This document shows, piece by piece, positions 3,386 to 35,600 of a DNA stretch of 43,153 nucleotides; the stretch's first letter is position 1, and each line of letters opens with the position of its first letter. Location: positions 1 to 43,153 of IMG/VR virus record IMGVR_UViG_3300005467_000007. One strand, 5' to 3'. This DNA is from a virus. The position numbers and the translations under genes are program-made. The notes beneath the pieces were generated by a model that worked only from the letters and a program-made list of their open reading frames with translations, was not told the origin of the DNA and made no database searches.

Positions 3386-5374
3386 TCAGAGCCCGAGCGG
3401 ACCGGATTGGCCGGCGGGCGGCGGGGGAGGCGGAGCCATCGCCGGGGCCATCCCAGGCGGGGCGGCTCCGCCGACGGAGCCCCCCAACCCGACGGACATG
3501 CCGGCCGAGCCCTGCACGGGCGCCGGCATGCCGAGTGCCGGCTGTGGCGCCTGGGGCGGGGAGACCTCAGCCGACATCTGGGCGGACAGCTCCGCGATGA
3601 AGTCGAGGAAGTACTGCAGCCGTTCGGTCGGGACCTCCGACAGCTCGGCTTCCATCAGGGAGTCGATGACCTGCACCATGGCGTCGGCCTTGCGCATCCA
3701 CGGCCGAGGACCCTGATAGAAATTCGGCTCGTTCAGTTCCTCGTCCTTCGACATCAACCAGCGGTCGATTTGCCATGCCACCCAGCGCCGCTGGGTTTTG
3801 ATGACCTTGGTTTCGCCCGGCACGTCGTAGTTCTCCAGGCACGCGATGTACGCCTCGAACGGAATGGCGCCCTTCTCCAGCAGCTCCTCCGCGTACTGGA
3901 CGCGTTCCTCGGGAGTGTTCTTCTTTTCGGAGACGGGCTTGACCTGGACTTGCAGGGCCTCCAGGTCGAGGTCCAGGATGTCCTTCGCCTCGATTTCCTT
4001 GGAGAAAAACTCCCCGGTCCACTTGCGGGAGAACGCCGCGTTCTCTTCGTACAGCTTGCGCTGGGCCCGGAGCATATGCCGGGCAATGTCGACGGCGACC
4101 CACTGCACGTACGCGCGGTGGCCGGTGGCGTGGCGGTTGTCGAACCGCTCGCCGGCCGTGCGCTGGGCTACGCCGGACGGGAGTCCAGGTTCAGCCTTCG
4201 CGGCAGTGTGCATGTCGGCGATGCCGAGGGTCTCCGCGATGCCGGTCTCGTGCTCGTGGAGCAGCTCCATATCGATGCGGTTGAACGGCGCGGGGTTCTC
4301 CACGACGGGCTTGGCGTTCGGGTTCTTCAGCCGGATGACCTTGATGGTGTCGATGACCGTCAGGTCGTTGATGTCCACCAGGTCCTTTTCGACCACGTAG
4401 TGGATTTGCTGGGCGTTGTCCGTGTGGGCCTCGTCGCACCGGAAAAGAATCTCGTTCGCTTTCAGGACCTCGTCGAACACGATTTCCATCATGGGCGTGG
4501 ACCAGAACCCGGCCAGCGCCGGAGCCGTGTGCAAGAACGCGAACGGGGGCTCGTCCGAATCCCATTCCTCGTCCAGCAGTACCGTGCCGTTGCGGAGGGT
4601 GACCAGGTGTCGGCCGGGTTCGTCGCCCACGCGTACCGCCCAGGCCTCCCATACAGGGACCATCTCGGCGCGCTTGGTGCGGCCGGTGAACGTCAGCCCA
4701 CCCCGGTCCTTCCGGGACTCGACGGCTTGGTGGATGGCGGTTGAGTGCGAGGGGTACGAGCGGGCGAGCTTGTAGGGCGCCCACCACGTAACCTCGCCGA
4801 ACGTACGGGGCGTGCCGTACGACAGCTCCGTATCGTCGAGGAACATGTCCAGTGTGTCGTGGAGCTCCACGACCACGCGGTCTTCCTCGGGCCAGGGGTA
4901 GATTTTCGCGGCCACGGACCCGGTCGCGGAGCACGCGATGCGGAGGCCCTGGTGGGCCAAGGCGTGCACGTTGGCATAGTTCCCCTGGCGCAGGTCGTAC
5001 TCCGCGGACAGGATACGCTCGTTCAGCGTGACTTTACGTTTGAGCTCCCAATCCCCGTCGGTCACCATCAGTGCTGGCTGGGGCGCGTCGTTCGCGCCGA
5101 TTTTGCCGACGTACGTCTCGACGAACTTGTACGAGTAATTCCGCGTCAGAGGGATGTTGTCGTCCGTGCCGGACCGGGTATCCCGCCAGGAGAAGCGCGC
5201 ATCTCTCGCAAAGGGCGTGTCCAAATTCCGCCCATGATAAAATCCAGCTAACCGCCTTGCTCTTGCGCGCCTCCATGTATACTGCTTGGAGTACTCGGTC
5301 TCCAGCTCCACGATTTTGTGAGCGGCCTCCTTAGAATCCCGCTCCCACCACGCCAGGTCCGGTTCGTATGCCAT
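3386..5374 (-). CDS. Portal protein
   Basis: 662 residues. The portal is the dodecameric ring at the capsid vertex through which DNA is packaged and ejected. The length and overall pattern fit podovirus portals: a charged N-terminus (WWERDSKEAAHKIVELETEYSKQYTWRRARARRLAGFYHG), an alpha/beta middle with VVVELHDTLDMFLDD and FLHTAPALAGFWSTPMMEIV, long helices between about 370 and 600, and a disordered Pro/Gly/Met-rich tail after about 600. The ATG at 5374 lies 7 bases after the predicted -10 box at 5382-5387, so its mRNA should be almost leaderless. It diverges from the terminase large subunit gene. Confidence 0.85.
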   Translation of the reverse strand: MAYEPDLAWWERDSKEAAHKIVELETEYSKQYTWRRARARRLAGFYHGRNLDTPFARDARFSWRDTRSGTDDNIPLTRNYSYKFVETYVGKIGANDAPQPALMVTDGDWELKRKVTLNERILSAEYDLRQGNYANVHALAHQGLRIACSATGSVAAKIYPWPEEDRVVVELHDTLDMFLDDTELSYGTPRTFGEVTWWAPYKLARSYPSHSTAIHQAVESRKDRGGLTFTGRTKRAEMVPVWEAWAVRVGDEPGRHLVTLRNGTVLLDEEWDSDEPPFAFLHTAPALAGFWSTPMMEIVFDEVLKANEILFRCDEAHTDNAQQIHYVVEKDLVDINDLTVIDTIKVIRLKNPNAKPVVENPAPFNRIDMELLHEHETGIAETLGIADMHTAAKAEPGLPSGVAQRTAGERFDNRHATGHRAYVQWVAVDIARHMLRAQRKLYEENAAFSRKWTGEFFSKEIEAKDILDLDLEALQVQVKPVSEKKNTPEERVQYAEELLEKGAIPFEAYIACLENYDVPGETKVIKTQRRWVAWQIDRWLMSKDEELNEPNFYQGPRPWMRKADAMVQVIDSLMEAELSEVPTERLQYFLDFIAELSAQMSAEVSPPQAPQPALGMPAPVQGSAGMSVGLGGSVGGAAPPGMAPAMAPPPPPPAGQSGPLGL

Positions 5375-5381
5375 TCGCCCT

Positions 5382-5390
5382 ATTCTAGCA
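5382..5390 (-). promoter_or_regulatory. Extended -10 promoter for the portal operon (leaderless)
   Basis: On the minus strand the sequence reads TGC TAGAAT, then AGGGCGA, then the portal ATG. The predicted transcription start falls at or next to the start codon. It shares the GTGCTA core with other promoters of this genome. Confidence 0.6.
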
Positions 5391-5405
5391 CTGGCCGGCC
5401 CGCCG

Positions 5406-5414
5406 TGCTAGTAT
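5406..5414 (+). promoter_or_regulatory. Extended -10 promoter for terminase large subunit (leaderless)
   Basis: TGC TAGTAT lies 6 bases before the GTG start at 5421, so the predicted transcription start coincides with the start codon. It is back to back with the portal promoter in a 46-base gap. No convincing -35 box. Confidence 0.55.
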
Positions 5415-5420
5415 TCCTGT

Positions 5421-6785
5421 GTGCTAGCGCCCCTGACTCGACTCCTCAAAATCCCCGAGGAGCGCCGCGCCCTCACGCCTCCGGAGTTACGATTCGTCAG
5501 TTCCCCCGCCAAGCGCCGCACAAACTGTTCCGGCCGACGCGCCGGCAAGTCGTTCTCCGTGACACTGTGGCTGGTTGAGCAATGGCGCCGGCGCCCCAAC
5601 CAGTCGTCGATTTTCATGGCGCTGTCGCAGGAGTCCGCCATCAAAATTGGGTGGGACGCCCTACGGGAGTTCAACGACCGGTTCGGGTGGGGGGCGGTCT
5701 ACAATGGCACAGACGCCACGTGGACATTCCCCAATGGTTTTACATTGTACTACATGGGGTGTAAGGACCGTCGTTCGGCCAACCTCGTCCGTGGCGTGCC
5801 GAAAATCCATCGCGTGGCCGTCGACGAGTGCGGCCAGATAGCGGACCCCCTGCTGGAGTACCTAGTCGTCGACGTGGTCGAACCCACGTTGGCCGACACG
5901 GACGGGGACCTCTGCCTGCTCGGGACGCCGTCGGATACGGGCGTGGGGTTCTACGAGGATGAAATGACCGCGTGCGAGGAGGCCGGGGCACACTTCGCCT
6001 GGACCGCCGCGGAGAACCCACATCTCGAAAAGCCCGGGGGCCAGTTCATCGCCGAGGCCCTCGCCAAGCGGTTCGCCGGCAACGCGGCGAACGCCACGTT
6101 CCGGCGGGAGTACCTCGGCCACCGCGTGCAGGAGGAGGGCATCCTCATATACCGCCCGTGCGCGGACCTCGACGAGGGGTTCTATGAGCGGGCCCCGTCA
6201 CGGGACAACTACACGGCCATGGGCATCGACATCGGGTGGTCGGACGGCGCGGGGCTGTCCGTGCTCCGGGCCCGCGACCCCGAGCCCGGGGCCCACATTC
6301 TGGAGTGCTACCGCGAGGCGGAACTCACCGTGCCGCGACTCGCCGCCATCGCGGAGCGGATGGTACAGGAGCATGACGTCACGGAGATATTCGTTGACGC
6401 GGCGGGGGGCGGGGGGCGGACGATATGCGAAACGCTCCGGGCGTCGTATGGCCTGGATGCGACGCCGGTCGACAAGCGCGCCCGTCGAATGCGTATCGAG
6501 CAGCTCCGGACCATGTTGGATGCGCGCACGCTACGGGGGTCCGTAGGTCGGTGCGCCCAGGTCCTGGAGGAGTGGCGGGGGTTGCCGTGGAACCTGGAGC
6601 GGGACAACCATCGCGAAGGGTACGTCGACGAATGCACCGACGCCACCCAGTACGCGCTACAGGGTGGCGGGTTCACACAGCTCACGACCTGGGTGGTGGA
6701 GCCTACACCCGAGCAGGCCTACGCTGCTCGGGTGGCGGAAATCCAGCGGGGCAAGCGTTTACGAACGCGGTCCGGGCGGCGCTGA
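5421..6785 (+). CDS. terL: Terminase large subunit (packaging ATPase/nuclease)
   Basis: 454 residues. The motor that pumps DNA into the prohead and cuts the concatemer. ATPase domain: Walker A CSGRRAGKS at 36-44, Walker B VAVDECG with Asp135-Glu136, coupling motif LLGTPS near 167. Nuclease domain (RNase H fold): MGIDIGWSD with Asp270, FVDAAGG with Asp326, and YVDECTDATQYAL with Asp403/Asp407. All key acidic residues are present, so it should be active. The start is GTG. The gene stands alone on its strand, separated from the small subunit-like gene (638-1138) by the whole portal operon, and its 3' end overlaps a small minus-strand gene by 27 bases. Confidence 0.92.
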   Translation: MLAPLTRLLKIPEERRALTPPELRFVSSPAKRRTNCSGRRAGKSFSVTLWLVEQWRRRPNQSSIFMALSQESAIKIGWDALREFNDRFGWGAVYNGTDATWTFPNGFTLYYMGCKDRRSANLVRGVPKIHRVAVDECGQIADPLLEYLVVDVVEPTLADTDGDLCLLGTPSDTGVGFYEDEMTACEEAGAHFAWTAAENPHLEKPGGQFIAEALAKRFAGNAANATFRREYLGHRVQEEGILIYRPCADLDEGFYERAPSRDNYTAMGIDIGWSDGAGLSVLRARDPEPGAHILECYREAELTVPRLAAIAERMVQEHDVTEIFVDAAGGGGRTICETLRASYGLDATPVDKRARRMRIEQLRTMLDARTLRGSVGRCAQVLEEWRGLPWNLERDNHREGYVDECTDATQYALQGGGFTQLTTWVVEPTPEQAYAARVAEIQRGKRLRTRSGRR

Positions 6786-22171: not shown

Positions 22172-22510
22172 ATGCAGCGAGAACGCGCGCGAGACCCTGA
22201 ACGGCCGCCCAGACATTGGGCCCCGGAGGCGTGGCGCCTAAGGTGCGCGCTGTATGCGGCTATGGTCCGGCTCCCGTACGGGACGGCCGACGCCCGGTTG
22301 CTCGACGGCGTGGATAAGTGGGTCGGGTGGACCGGGAAGGGAAAGCCCGTTCCCGGGCCGTGGTGGGCCCTGGCGTGCGCTTTGGTGGCTGCCATGGCTC
22401 CCTGCCTAGCCGACGCCGGGTCGCGCCGCCTAGTGGCACCCTGGGCCCGCGGCGGGGGTGTGGCCCCGGCCGACGCCGGGCCGGGGGGGTTCCGGCCGCT
22501 CGGGGGCTAA
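22172..22510 (+). CDS. Unknown protein, first gene of the lysis-region operon
   Basis: 112 residues, Trp- and Ala-rich, with two moderately hydrophobic segments (WRLRCALYAAMVRLPYG; WWALACALVAAMAPCLADAG) and a Gly/Pro-rich tail. It could be membrane-associated, and holin is one possibility because an endolysin is encoded downstream, but the hydrophobicity is modest. The last codons lie inside the left arm of the 22-base inverted repeat at 22504-22568, so the end of this gene is also a structural element. Confidence 0.5.
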   Translation: MQRERARDPERPPRHWAPEAWRLRCALYAAMVRLPYGTADARLLDGVDKWVGWTGKGKPVPGPWWALACALVAAMAPCLADAGSRRLVAPWARGGGVAPADAGPGGFRPLGG

Positions 22511-23618: not shown

Positions 23619-24020
23619 ATGCCCCTAGGTGCACAATCCAAAGCCCGTCTCGCGGACTGCCACCCGAAGCTACGGCGTGTGGTCGAGGCCGCCATGGCCC
23701 GCCTAGACCGCGCCCGTATCCACGGAGACTTCACGGTCGTGTGCGGCCACCGCGGCCAAGCCGAGCAGGAACGCGCCGTCGCGGAGGGGAAGTCCCGCCA
23801 GCACTGGCCCAACTCCCGCCACAACACCCTCCCCGCCACGGCGGTCGACCTGGCCCCGTACCCGACGGACTGGTCGGATACCGAGGCGTTCGCCCGGCTG
23901 GCTGGGTACGTCCTGGCCGTGGCGGATGACCTGGATATCGAGCTGGAGTGGGGTGGGGACTGGGTGTCGTTTCCAGACCGACCCCACTTCCAGCTGACCA
24001 CGAGAGAGCTGTCCCGATGA
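23619..24020 (+). CDS. Endolysin, M15-type L-alanyl-D-glutamate / D,D-peptidase
   Basis: 133 residues, the usual length of single-domain phage M15 peptidases. It has CGHRGQAEQERAVAEGKS, NSRHNTLPATAVDLAP and WGGDWVSFPDRPHFQL. Zinc ligands are His68, Asp77 and His123; the WGGDW-F-D-(R)PHF ending is the family hallmark. It cuts the peptide stem of peptidoglycan from inside the cell. There is no signal peptide, so it needs a holin. It is followed by two exported-protein genes that may complete lysis. Confidence 0.85.
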   Translation: MPLGAQSKARLADCHPKLRRVVEAAMARLDRARIHGDFTVVCGHRGQAEQERAVAEGKSRQHWPNSRHNTLPATAVDLAPYPTDWSDTEAFARLAGYVLAVADDLDIELEWGGDWVSFPDRPHFQLTTRELSR

Positions 24021-24235
24021 CTCCCCACACCCCGGACTGGACCGATACCGCGTTCGCGTGGGCCATCGCCTCGGCCATCGCGGCGCTGGTGTTCGTCGTG
24101 TTCTGCCTGGCCGGGTGCGTCACCCGCACGACCGTGTGCGTCGAGACGGCCCACGGCCTCGGGGTGCGCGATGCGTACGGGGGCCGCCCCGACACGGTAG
24201 GAGGCTCGGCGTGCGTCGATATCGAGCGGCCCTGA
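24017..24235 (+). CDS. Putative lipoprotein or spanin-like lysis protein
   Basis: 72 residues. A hydrophobic segment (TAFAWAIASAIAALVFVVFC) ends in LAGC at 31-34, a good lipobox; after cleavage a 39-residue mature lipoprotein with two more Cys would remain. The ATG overlaps the endolysin stop (ATGA). The location directly after an endolysin and overlap with another lipoprotein-like gene recall nested i-spanin/o-spanin pairs, but there is no coiled coil and no proline-rich linker. A holin function of the hydrophobic segment is the alternative. Confidence 0.5.
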   Translation: MTPHTPDWTDTAFAWAIASAIAALVFVVFCLAGCVTRTTVCVETAHGLGVRDAYGGRPDTVGGSACVDIERP

Positions 24236-24639
24236 CCGTCGCCCTAGCGACTGGGTGCGCGACCCAGGGTGCCAGCAGCTACCACGCGGCCATCGCCCAC
24301 GCCGCGGACCGATGGGAACACGCGTGCGGCGTACGCCCCGTGCCGGCGTCGGTCGTGGTGTACTGGGCCTGGGCGCACGTGCCGTGCGGCCGGTCCCGGG
24401 CCGCCGTGGGGTGTACCGACGGCGCTGGACACGTGGCCCTCGCCGGCCAGTCGACGGCGCCGGTGGAAGGCCTCGTGGTGCACGAGTTCGGCCACGTCCT
24501 GGGCGCTGGGCACCTGGCGACGGGGCTGGCCGGCGTGATGGTGTCGGACTTGCGGTCCAACAACTGGCGCCAGTGTATCACTGCGGACGACTTGGACGCG
24601 GTGGGGGTGTGTACGACGCGTCGGCCGGAGTGTCGTTAA
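24211..24639 (+). CDS. Metzincin-type zinc metalloprotease, probable lipoprotein
   Basis: 142 residues. Residues 91-101 read HEFGHVLGAGH, the exact metzincin HExxHxxGxxH zinc motif, with GVM (Met110) in the place of the Met-turn and a matrixin-like ITADDLDAVGVC following. The N-terminus (MRRYRAALTVALATGCATQG) is a short signal with a lipobox-like Cys16, so it should act outside the inner membrane. The start is the GTG at 24211, with TAGGAGG six bases upstream, inside the previous gene. A metzincin beside an endolysin is unusual; it may cut envelope proteins or help remove the outer membrane at lysis. Confidence 0.7.
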   Translation: MRRYRAALTVALATGCATQGASSYHAAIAHAADRWEHACGVRPVPASVVVYWAWAHVPCGRSRAAVGCTDGAGHVALAGQSTAPVEGLVVHEFGHVLGAGHLATGLAGVMVSDLRSNNWRQCITADDLDAVGVCTTRRPECR

Positions 24640-24675: not shown

Positions 24676-24858
24676 ATGGCAGCTATCTCCGCATCGTACT
24701 CGTTCACCCCCGCCGTCACCGGCGGACAAATCTCCGTCACCGGCAACACCGAGACGGAAATCAAGTCGGCCGTCAAGGCCGTGCTCGCGACTCGGTCCGC
24801 TACGACCCAGGCCCAGCTGGACGCCCTCGCCGCGGCCGCGTCCGAAATGGACGCGTGA
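24676..24858 (+). CDS. Small protein with its own leaderless promoter
   Basis: 60 residues beginning MAAISASYSFTPAVTGGQIS, a Ser/Thr-rich beta-like first half followed by an Ala-rich helix (SATTQAQLDALAAAASEMDA). It is monocistronic in appearance: a promoter immediately before and a strong inverted repeat immediately after. It could be a small virion or assembly protein since the structural genes start here. No family recognised. Confidence 0.5.
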   Translation: MAAISASYSFTPAVTGGQISVTGNTETEIKSAVKAVLATRSATTQAQLDALAAAASEMDA

Positions 24859-29193: not shown

Positions 29194-29550
29194 GTGTCCG
29201 AATTCCTCAAAAACTTCGTGCGTTCGAAGACTTTCAAGGCCGTTTTGGCTCTCCTGGCCGCCGCGGCGACCGCGTACGCCACCCAGGGGTGCGCGGGGCT
29301 GCTCGGGGGCAGTCAAACTGCGCGAGTCGCGCGCTTTAACTGCCAAGTCGACGCGCTGCAGCCCGTTTTCGGCGACGTGCTCGACACGGCGGACCTCGTC
29401 CGCAGCCTGTACAAGGGCAACGCGAGCCTGGAGGCCGCTCTGGCGGCCGCCGGTGCCACCGAGGCCGAAGTCCGCGCACTGGTCTCGGCCCTCCGCGCGT
29501 GCGAGGGGCCCCCGGACGTCCCGGGCGACGCCGGCCTGACCGCATCCTGA
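29194..29550 (+). CDS. Membrane-anchored or lipoprotein-like protein
   Basis: 118 residues from a GTG at 29194. The N-terminus (MSEFLKNFVRSKTFKAVLAL then LAAAATAYATQGCAG) is a basic region plus hydrophobic helix ending near Cys33, resembling a signal anchor or lipoprotein leader. Three cysteines in all. The C-terminal domain is helical (TEAEVRALVSALRACEG). It lies between head and adaptor genes. It could be a virion protein placed in the membrane during ejection, or a lysis accessory; neither is shown. Confidence 0.45.
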   Translation: MSEFLKNFVRSKTFKAVLALLAAAATAYATQGCAGLLGGSQTARVARFNCQVDALQPVFGDVLDTADLVRSLYKGNASLEAALAAAGATEAEVRALVSALRACEGPPDVPGDAGLTAS

Positions 29551-31953: not shown

Positions 31954-32487
31954 GTGCTCGATAAACTAGTCGAAACGATAATTTCCGTCGTGCACTGGTT
32001 CCGATTCTGGGCCATATGCGGCGCCGAGTACCGCGGTGTGATGTGCCGTTTCGGCCACCCCGTGCGCGACCTGCGCCCGGGATGGAACTGGAAGTTACCT
32101 CTCGGCGTGGAATCCGCGGCCCTCGCCGACGTGCGGGTGTGGGCCGACGTGCTCCCAGCCCAGTCCCTCCGCACGACCGACGGTGTTACGCTGGTGGTGT
32201 GCCTGATGGTGTCCCACCAGGTGGTCGACCCGAAGGCCTTCCTTTTCCAGGTGTTCGATTCGAATAACAATTTCCAGGACGTAGCCGCAGGGCAGCTCGG
32301 CGCCGCCGTGATGTCGGCCACCGCCGCCGAAGTCTACGACGGCACCGTCCTCCGAAAGGTCCGCCGAAAGGTCGTCACCGCCGCCAAGGCGTGGGGACTA
32401 GTGGTACACAATGTTCAATTCACCAGCTGCGCCGAAGCGCCCGCGTTCCGGCTATTCGGCATCCCCGGAGGGGGCCCCCATGAGTAA
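31954..32487 (+). CDS. SPFH / band 7 (stomatin-prohibitin-like) membrane protein
   Basis: 177 residues. An N-terminal hydrophobic segment (VETIISVVHWFRFWAICG, 6-23) is followed by EYRGVMCRFGHPVRDLRPGWNWKLPL, the classic band 7 opening (ERGVV-RFG-x-V-x-x-L-x-PG-x-x-x-K-x-P). Then comes SLRTTDGVTLVVCLMVSHQVVDPKAFLF, the core strand pair, then a helical stretch and AWGLVVHNVQFTS, the closing strand. It lacks the long coiled-coil C-terminus of full stomatins. SPFH proteins assemble on membranes and control proteases such as FtsH. Its own leaderless promoter and its overlap with a holin-like gene suggest a membrane role during infection or timing of lysis. Confidence 0.65.
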   Translation: MLDKLVETIISVVHWFRFWAICGAEYRGVMCRFGHPVRDLRPGWNWKLPLGVESAALADVRVWADVLPAQSLRTTDGVTLVVCLMVSHQVVDPKAFLFQVFDSNNNFQDVAAGQLGAAVMSATAAEVYDGTVLRKVRRKVVTAAKAWGLVVHNVQFTSCAEAPAFRLFGIPGGGPHE

Positions 32488-32689
32488 TAACTCAGTCCGT
32501 GACGAAGGTCGCTACGCCCTGATACCGAAGGTGACTCTCGCGTCACTGGACCAGCGGCTTAGCAATCTGGAGCGCATACTGCTGTCGATGCAGGCCCAGC
32601 AAACCCCGAAATGGGTACGCATGGGCGGCTGGACGTCCATCGTCGGGGCGGCCCTCGGCGTGGCCGTGAAAGTGTTGCTGGGGTCCTGA
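32480..32689 (+). CDS. Holin-like small membrane protein (XhlA-like layout)
   Basis: 69 residues: a short helix (LASLDQRLSNLERILLSMQAQ, about 20-40) followed by one C-terminal membrane segment (GGWTSIVGAALGVAVKVLLG, 49-68). This helix-then-anchor plan is that of XhlA/haemolysin-type holin accessory proteins. The ATG at 32480 has GGAGGGGG upstream and overlaps the SPFH gene by 8 bases, so the two are coupled. Alternative: a small tail-assembly or superinfection protein. The endolysin is far away at 23619. Confidence 0.5.
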   Translation: MSNNSVRDEGRYALIPKVTLASLDQRLSNLERILLSMQAQQTPKWVRMGGWTSIVGAALGVAVKVLLGS

Positions 32690-32690
32690 C

Positions 32691-35600
32691 GTGTCGCGTC
32701 TAACCCCACTCGCCATCCCGTTCGTCTCCGGCCACACGGACGAAATCGACGAGAAGCTCCTCCCCAACGGGGTGTTCGCGGACGTGTCCAACGCCCGCCT
32801 CCCCCAACCCGGCGGGTTGCGGCTGCGGCGTGGGTGGCGGCCGGTACCAATGGCGGACCTGGCGAACGGCTCCACCCTAACCGCCATCGACCTGTACTCG
32901 TTCGGTGAATCGCTGCTGGCGCTGAACACGAAAGTAGGCAGCAATCAGCAGTTCCTGCTGGCCACGTACACCCAATCTAACGCGACGCGGCCGTGGGTAC
33001 TGAACACGGATTCCGGCCTGCCGCCCATCACCCGCGTCAGCAGTGCTGGCAACATGCCGGCACTGTCGTCGAACGTGAACAACGCGTCGGCGGCGCTGAC
33101 TGCGGATGGCGTGTACGGGTGTGTGCTGCAGCAGTCCGCGACCCAGTCGGTGTTCCGCGTGTTCGTGCGGGCTACGGACGAGACCGTGGCGTACGGTGAG
33201 CTGACCAACGGGTCTCGCGTCCGCAAAGTCGTGTCCATGGGGTCGACATTCGGCCTAGTGGAGAACACCGGCGCCGGGCTGGATTTGTACTCCCTGAACC
33301 CTACCGGCACCGCCCCGGCGTGGGCGTTGGTGGGTACGCTGTTCGCTGCGGTAGTGACGTGGTTTGATGTGGCGGTCGCGTGCGATTCCACGCCTACGGC
33401 GCTCCATATCGCGGACGTAGTCGGCGCGGTCGGGTCGTACCGGCAGTTCACGTTCGCGGGGGTACAGACCGGAGCCACCAAAACCGTGGCCGCGGCCACA
33501 TGCCTGGCGGTTACGCTGTGCTCGAATGACGCCGCGGTGGAGTACGTCTCCCAGGACTCCGGCACGAAGGAGCTGGCGTTGACCAGTTTCTCCGCCACGT
33601 CGCCGTTCACCACGGCTGCGGGCCCGACCGCAGTGAACGCCGGCCAGGCGGTCGTGGATGGGCTGTTCTGCGTGGGGTTGTCCATCTCCGGGGTAGCAGC
33701 CACGCCGACGTCCGTGATGGTCGCGTCCGAGCACGCGGCGGGCGCGAATGATTTGCGCGAGGTTTCCTACAACACCATCAGCTCCCACGCCACCCACGCC
33801 GTCAACACGCGCCGAATCGCACTGGGGCAGCAGTTGTTCGGCGGGTTCATGATGCGTAACGCGTTGCTGGGCATAGGGCTGTCTCGCAGGCCTACGGGGT
33901 TTGGGCTGTCGGGCTCGGGTGGGTCGACATCCATGTACGCCGCGGCCGCTACGAATCTAACAGCGCCGTGGTGCTATATCGATTTTGGCATCGCGGCACA
34001 GTTTGACTTTTTCGCACATCCGCCGTTTTGGCCGGCCCAGTGCCCTACGGGAGACTGTCTGGTGCTGGCGCCGCGGGACGAAACCCCGAATACCGGCGTC
34101 ACGCCCCGTACGGCCACGTGCCGCGCGTTGCGGTTGGGGTCGAGTGAACGCCGCCCCGCGGCCCAAGTCAACGGCGGGTTGTACATCACCGGCGGCATCC
34201 TGACCGAGTGGGTCGGGGCGCTGAACGAAAACGGCCAGCTGTTCCCCATCATCAACACCCTGGCCGGGTCCAACTCGACCGGCACCATCGCTAACGGCAC
34301 GTATCAGTACCGCGCCGTGATGGTGTGGGAGGACGAGCGACAGAACACCCACCGCTCGATAGTGTCGGGCCCAGCCCAGCTAGCGCTCGCCGGGGCCAAC
34401 GACACCATCACGGCGACGGTGTACGCCGCCAAGACACTGCGCCGAAACGCGAACCTAATCACGAACCCGCGTATCGAGTTGTACCGCACGGAGGCCGGGC
34501 CGGGGGCGCTGTTCTATCTGACGAACTCTGCCGCCGTGGCCACGTTCACGGACACCGTCACTATCGTGGACACGATGCCAGACGCTACGCTGGTCGGCCA
34601 GGCCCAGCTCTACACCCAGGGCGAAGTCGGCGCCACGTCGGGCATTCTCGACCAGGCCCCCGCGCGGCCCAGCGCGTTCGTGGCCGCTACGAAACGTCGG
34701 CTTGTTTTGGGTTCGTCCAACACGTCGTATCAGTGGAGCCAGATTTCATTCCCCGAAACCCCAATATGGTTCGCCGAGCCCGGTGTGTCCGGCGACGCCG
34801 CCCAAGCGTACTTCGACGATGTCGAGGGCGGGCGCATCACGGGCGTCGCGGCACTCGACGAAATCGTGTTCATCGGGACCGCCGACCGGATTTACGTCAC
34901 CGGCGGCACGGGGCCGAACTTGGCCGGCGCCGGGGGTGAGTTCTCCCCGCCGGTACAACTCCCCGCCGACGTGGGGTTCTTCAACGCCCAGTCCATTCTG
35001 GAGACCTCCGAGGGGCTATGGTTCCTCGGGTCCATCAACACGTTCTATCTGCTCGCACGCGGCACCCCCACCCCGGAGTTGTCCCGCGCCGTCCAGGACC
35101 GCCTGACCACCGCGGTGGTCGGGTGCGGGTACGACCACGTCGACAACGTGGCCGTGTGGGCCACGGCGTCGGCCACCGCCGTCGTACGCCAGCTCGACAC
35201 CAAGCAGTGGTTCGGGGACACGTTGCCGTTCACCCCGATAGCGCTCCACTCGCACGGGGGTCAGTTATACGCCATCGCGTCCGATGGCGTGGTGTGGGCC
35301 CAGTCCCCGACCGCATACGGTGACGGTACGTCGGGGGCTACGGCGGTGGCGCTCCGGGTCACGACGGGCCAAATCGGTCCGTTCGAGATGGCCGGGTGGG
35401 GGCGGTTGGCCGTGGTGGAGCTCCTAGGGGAGTTCGAGACGGCGGCGGCACTGCTCGCGGAGATATCCTACGACGACGGGCTGACGTGGACGTCCCTCGG
35501 CACCCACACCGTGACGGGGTTGTCGTCGGGGCAGGCGTGGCAACGCCAGTGGTACCCGGCCCGCCAACGCGGGGACCGGTTCCGATGTAGGTTCACAATG

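Follow-up and report, generated by a model that had tools for sequence, protein, structure and literature searches.

Why would a phage encode a zinc protease directly beside its endolysin? The lysis of diderm hosts by phages has been described as a process in three steps, carried out by holin, endolysin and spanin (PMC6139136). The question is raised by a soil phage, known from a virus record of 43,153 bp (G000; hereafter the window, meaning the whole stretch analysed), which carries a 60-base repeat at its ends. An earlier note, made from the letters of this DNA, had recognised in it a metzincin with a lipoprotein signal next to an M15 endolysin, and had proposed that the protease might replace spanins. 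The features concerned are the following.

23619 to 24020, plus strand: M15 endolysin gene (PF13539, 1.2e-7; phrog_465 endolysin, 1e-37)
24017 to 24235, plus strand: gene for a 72-residue membrane protein with a single TM helix and an LAGC, overlapping both the M15 endolysin and the metzincin genes
24200 to 24204, plus strand: ribosome-binding site GGAGG of the metzincin gene, with the GTG six bases downstream
24211 to 24639, plus strand: gene for the predicted lipobox metzincin, a matrixin-like zinc protease of 142 residues, with a GTG start and its stop at 24639
24244 to 24258, plus strand: lipobox LATG-C (residues 12-16), after the n-region MRRYR; pattern MRRYRAALTVALATG-C
24481 to 24513, plus strand: zinc-binding motif HEFGHVLGAGH (residues 91-101)
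24538 to 24540, plus strand: Met-turn methionine Met110, nine residues past the third His
24676 to 24858, plus strand: 60-residue gene 3' of the metzincin gene

The coordinates, length, zinc motif and Met-turn methionine given for the protease in the earlier note proved exact. The same start was chosen independently by a simple gene finder, and the G+C content of the three codon positions in this frame (0.73/0.59/0.85) is like that of the certain genes of the window and unlike that of the other two frames. The motif HExxHxxGxxH followed by M is not expected by chance: it occurs once in the six frames of the window and in 0 of 400 Markov-simulated windows. The protein holds H91-E92-H95-G98-H101 and ends in a DDLDAV helix. 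A tblastn search of viral contigs, 50,697 phages and 72,556 plasmids detected no homologue. Phage metzincins were gathered from IMG/VR by a degenerate DNA pattern (120 contigs), and in an alignment of 39 small ones H91, E92, G94 and H95 are invariant, with L97, G98, H101 and M110 nearly so. A profile made from 37 other phage metzincins, from which the window protein and those of its relative G013 had been excluded, recovered the window gene at E 2e-10.

The AlphaFold2 model of the protein (pLDDT 80.6, pTM 0.76) presents the element order of a metzincin, with helix A, sheet, active-site helix B and helix C. Among known structures, it resembles karilysin (2xs4, VIA Z 10.6 over 119 residues), MMP-1 (10.4) and snapalysin (10.0); MMP-1/9/12/13 give Z of about 10, and the alignments to MMPs, karilysin and snapalysin span 107-119 residues. 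Because of this model, the structural matches and the leave-out profile match, the assignment as a minimal metzincin of the matrixin/snapalysin type is well supported, and the matrixin-like zinc protease fold that had been claimed is borne out by prediction. The protein has been labelled here as a matrixin-like metzincin and not as an M10 member because its score lies under the cut-off of Pfam Matrixin (PF00413; 18.5 vs 24 bits, E 0.0019), which is exceeded by the metzincins of two other viral contigs, L249 and L164 (29.2 and 30.4 bits). In snapalysin family M7 the third ligand is Asp (HExxHxxGxxD), whereas the window protein has His101, and its fold likeness to snapalysin ties with that to matrixins. 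Karilysin and the bacterial matrixins (M10), as well as snapalysin (M7), are similar to it in predicted fold, zinc motif, Met-turn and catalytic-domain size, but the window protein lacks a pro-domain, is phage-encoded, holds a lipobox and is only ~17-22% identical to them.

The lipoprotein signal attributed to the metzincin stands as a sequence pattern: the protein has the LATGC lipobox and a basic n-region and passes a G+LPP-like lipoprotein pattern, with a short (~10 residues) and moderately hydrophobic h-region (mean hydropathy 0.95). It is thus predicted to be an exported lipoprotein. The neighbouring 72-residue protein had been presented as the product of a second lipobox gene. Its overlaps were confirmed, 4 nt with the stop of the M15 gene (24017-24020) and 25 nt with the metzincin gene (24211-24235), but its lipoprotein identity is doubtful. 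The LAGC lies within the TM helix, the lipoprotein pattern is failed, and because the n-region (MTPHTPDWTDTAFAWA) is acidic and devoid of K/R, it has been taken as a membrane protein. A homologue of this protein was not found, and its match to a spanin (E 0.54) was discarded as noise.

The metzincin gene therefore sits, as had been noted, in a run of overlapping genes that contains an endolysin, with the M15 gene and the 72-residue gene upstream. Neither a holin nor a spanin was recognised in the window. Phage spanins (Rz/Rz1 and u-spanins) are comparable to the metzincin in that they include a lipobox protein whose gene lies among the lysis genes or overlaps one of them, but they are Pro-rich or coiled-coil fusogenic proteins, whereas the metzincin consists of a globular protease domain. 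It has no TM segment past the lipobox, and it shows neither the Pro-rich character of an o-spanin, nor the lipobox plus C-terminal TM of a u-spanin, nor the TM plus coiled coil of an i-spanin. The idea that, under a strict pattern, the metzincin is the sole lipoprotein of the genome was ruled out by a second one at 29194-29550 (TQGC, with a longer n-region), which is encoded among structural genes, is common to three relatives (G002, G003 and G012), and is a possible o-spanin or exclusion protein. Between tail genes, at 32480-32689, the window also encodes a 69-residue protein with a coiled coil and a C-terminal TM, XhlA-like by eye.

The reading that we prefer, and to which we give slightly better than an even chance, is that the window metzincin is an envelope-anchored accessory lysis protease that would cut envelope or partner proteins. 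The fold, the active-site residues, the signal pattern and the gene context are its basis, and from them we infer lipidation, membrane, timing, substrate and effect. An N-terminal signal would direct the export of a minimal matrixin-type zinc endopeptidase, which a lipid anchor would probably keep in the envelope; its placement in the outer membrane is an assumption. The gene overlaps suggest that its translation would be coupled to that of the M15 endolysin and of the small membrane protein. Late in infection, it would cut at least one envelope protein, for example ties between peptidoglycan and membrane or a partner lipoprotein, so that the cell would be opened more readily by the endolysin and its fellow lysis proteins. 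The protease would work beside the holin, endolysin and spanin functions, and is not a proven spanin substitute.

The relatives of this phage introduce the main competing explanation. One of them (G001) is a near-identical partial copy of the window which starts just 3' of the metzincin gene. Four others are colinear with the window: G002, G003, G012 and the more distant G013, with an MCP identity over the alignment of 78%, 84%, 72% and 59%, respectively. The closest cultured TerL is ~24% identical (Vibrio T5-like), tRNAs were not found in the window, and a host search with a capsid profile and the metzincin profile gave no match in 84,980 bacterial and archaeal genomes. The variable stretch among the relatives is the interval between the primase and capsid genes, which holds an Amidase_2 endolysin in G002 and G012 and a GGACT-like gene in G003; a lipobox metzincin is absent from this interval in these three. 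G012 carries, at 34962-35550 on the minus strand, a metzincin-like ORF without signal peptide (HEMGHVLARTNAH; profile E 0.0014) in its structural module. Only G013 has lipobox metzincins in the stretch from primase to MCP, where it has two in tandem.

L227:3510-4028: G013 metzincin 1, lipobox AVGC, HEMGHVLAWHRGH plus Met, profile E 0.0013
L227:4545-5390: G013 metzincin 2, lipobox LAAC, HELMHSAGLSH, weak profile match (E 0.056)

The model of the first one has a snapalysin/matrixin fold (Z 10.8 to snapalysin) at a pLDDT of only 64. The pair precedes the conserved homologue of the gene at 22172, a spot which is not identical to that of the window, and a recognised endolysin was not found beside it.

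Such variability is what would be expected of a cell-surface moron, that is, a protease of lipoprotein type which would modify the surface of the host and lies by chance beside the endolysin in a variable region, whether it cleaves a receptor (superinfection exclusion) or acts outward on other organisms. Phage lipoproteins often act in superinfection exclusion, and many viral lipobox metzincins are located away from recognised endolysins. Even so, we regard this explanation as rather unlikely, since two arrangements in other viral contigs are hard to account for by chance placement.

The first occurs in eight contigs (L249-L256) from a phage group that is unrelated to the window. The lipobox metzincin of these contigs shares 87-100% identity with that of L173, and in 8/8 of them an endolysin gene lies directly 5' of it. 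This endolysin is M15_3 in L249, L250 and L252 (6.5e-13), a lysozyme in L251, L253 and L256 (Phage_lysozyme, 3.1e-7), and CHAP in L254 and L255 (7.8e-6), with only one of the three types recognised per contig tested. Members with an M15 or CHAP endolysin show a 4-nt overlap of the endolysin and metzincin genes, and in the lysozyme members L251 and L253 a gap of ~120 nt separates the two. The endolysin has been exchanged while the metzincin has stayed, so the protease is retained in the lysis slot whatever the endolysin. The zinc ligands are invariant, and the pairwise dN/dS of the metzincins is 0.07-0.13 in 14/15 pairs (0.27 in one close pair), a strong purifying selection which concerns this group and not the window protein. 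Both the selection and the endolysin-independent retention add to the basis of the accessory lysis reading, and the conserved slot with swapped endolysins suggests an overlooked proteolytic lysis step in some phages.

Wherever the contigs cover it, the product of the gene 3' of the metzincin in this group carries a TM at its N-terminus as well as a long charged stretch. In L249 (5794-6339) and its relatives, this protein has a beta-rich C-terminus ending in Phe, and it may span the periplasm. Its only match in cultured phages is from Myxococcus phage Mx1 (E 7e-5), where the counterpart follows a ClpP-like gene; this match is only a weak hint of the host, because there is no metzincin in the Mx1 locus.

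The second arrangement is found in L164, whose lipobox metzincin (3842-5449) has C-terminal two-TM segments of holin-like look and is a possible protease-holin fusion. The stop of this gene shares 4 nt with the start of the next one, which codes for a TM/coiled-coil protein and within which, in another frame, a gene for a Pro-rich lipoprotein starts; this is the classic overlapped layout of Rz/Rz1. An Amidase_2 gene lies ~2 kb from the metzincin. The Rz/Rz1 reading is based on sequence features because no family match names either member of the pair.

These loci also bear on the proposal of the earlier note that the lipid-anchored protease disrupts the outer membrane in place of Rz/Rz1. When the lysis regions of four phages (the window, L249, L253 and G013) were scanned for lipoboxes from all start codons, metzincins alone came up, and no spanin was found in 91 of 677 surveyed phages, so that the literature leaves open how spanin-less phages get through the envelope (PMC6139136). 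However, L164 carries both the metzincin and the Rz/Rz1-like pair, and therefore the protease there adds to spanins instead of replacing them. In addition, the conserved lipoprotein at 29194-29550 could be the o-spanin of the window, and the TM protein beside the L249-type metzincin, with its long periplasmic stretch, could be an i-spanin. Replacement of spanins has thus lost ground and is considered improbable.

How far the association with endolysins extends was assessed in the remaining contigs. Among 44 further contigs with metzincins, 11 show a match to one of four endolysin families (a weak one in a single case), and in 2/44 it lies within ~2.5 kb, by which the idea that viral metzincins are generally linked to endolysins is rejected. 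Adjacency was additionally seen in L195 (phrog endolysin, 2.6e-5; metzincin without signal) and L109 (Amidase_2, 9.7e-13), while no metzincin was found near M15 relatives within the fetched flanks of 79 other viral contigs. The conserved linkage that the earlier note had proposed to look for hence holds in L249-L256, across three endolysin types, and fails in G002, G003, G012 and most other viral metzincins; the two outcomes which that note had named as fatal, lack of a protease fold and location outside lysis groups in all relatives, did not occur. For an accessory lysis protease, we count the endolysin linkage in the window, L249-L256 and L164, the pair of lipobox metzincins in the corresponding stretch of G013 and the Listeria precedent described below; against it, the window protein without tblastn homologues, the three relatives devoid of a lipobox metzincin, G013 without an endolysin beside its metzincins, and the two close endolysins among 44 contigs.

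The sole functional precedent found is Mtz/Tim from Listeria, and no other lysis-cassette metzincin was found in the open-access literature. Together with the lipoprotein Tim, the phage-derived metzincin Mtz promotes lysis by phage and increases the release of virions ~5-fold, while catalytically inactive Mtz gives no such rise (PMC8235301). With Mtz/Tim, the phage holin/lysin lysed Listeria where growth arrest alone otherwise occurred (PMC8235301). Mtz and the window protein are both small metzincins from phages with an HExxHxxGxxH/D motif, exported in the case of Mtz and predicted to be so in that of the window protein, and Mtz boosts phage lysis by working together with holin/lysin. In contrast, Mtz is secreted by an SPI signal and its partner is the lipoprotein, whereas in the window the lipobox is on the protease itself; moreover, the Mtz/Tim locus is chromosomal, cI/cro-like and Gram-positive, and does not belong to the endolysin run of an active phage.

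Since Mtz cuts the TIMP-like lipoprotein Tim (PMC8235301), the window protease might instead release or activate a partner, either the 72-residue membrane protein, whose gene overlaps its own (24211-24235), or another phage lipoprotein. Nevertheless, the 72-residue protein has no homologue found, and in L249-L256 no such gene lies between endolysin and metzincin, so that this explanation has a small chance, on a par with that of spanin replacement. A virion or morphogenesis protease, as the unsignalled ORF in the structural module of G012 could indicate, or a gene without current function is very improbable given the signal and lipobox, the late-lysis context, the intact active site and the coding signature.

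An accessory lysis protease can also be considered at a broader scale. We put forward, tentatively and at clearly less than an even chance, that lipid-anchored metzincins are a distinct, unrecognised class of lysis proteins, which would provide a proteolytic step directed at the envelope and which unrelated phages of diderm hosts keep near interchangeable endolysins, once fused to a holin-like domain. What is new is the lysis-cassette setting, which is undescribed, and not the protease fold, which is already known. A protease kept in the lysis run while the endolysin changes would point to envelope proteins as a further target of lysis, and metzincins of lysis cassettes could be a source of envelope-opening enzymes to act with endolysins.

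Metzincin-like proteins encoded by phages have been annotated before, as in the matrixin of Maribacter phage Colly_1 and the Zn-dependent protease of Lactobacillus phage 3-521; unlike that of the window, the latter gene is surrounded by hypothetical genes, and the annotation shows no lysis gene close to it. Other layouts were observed among the viral contigs. L096 (3545-4676) and L247 encode two small metzincins in tandem, with genes for a lipoprotein and a papain-like protease behind them. The viral matrixins of L137, L184, L185 and L191 have a possible peptidoglycan-binding N-terminal region and are flanked by several small TM proteins. In L160 (5392-6000), a lipobox metzincin comes right after another lipoprotein gene, which recalls the layout of Mtz/Tim in Listeria.
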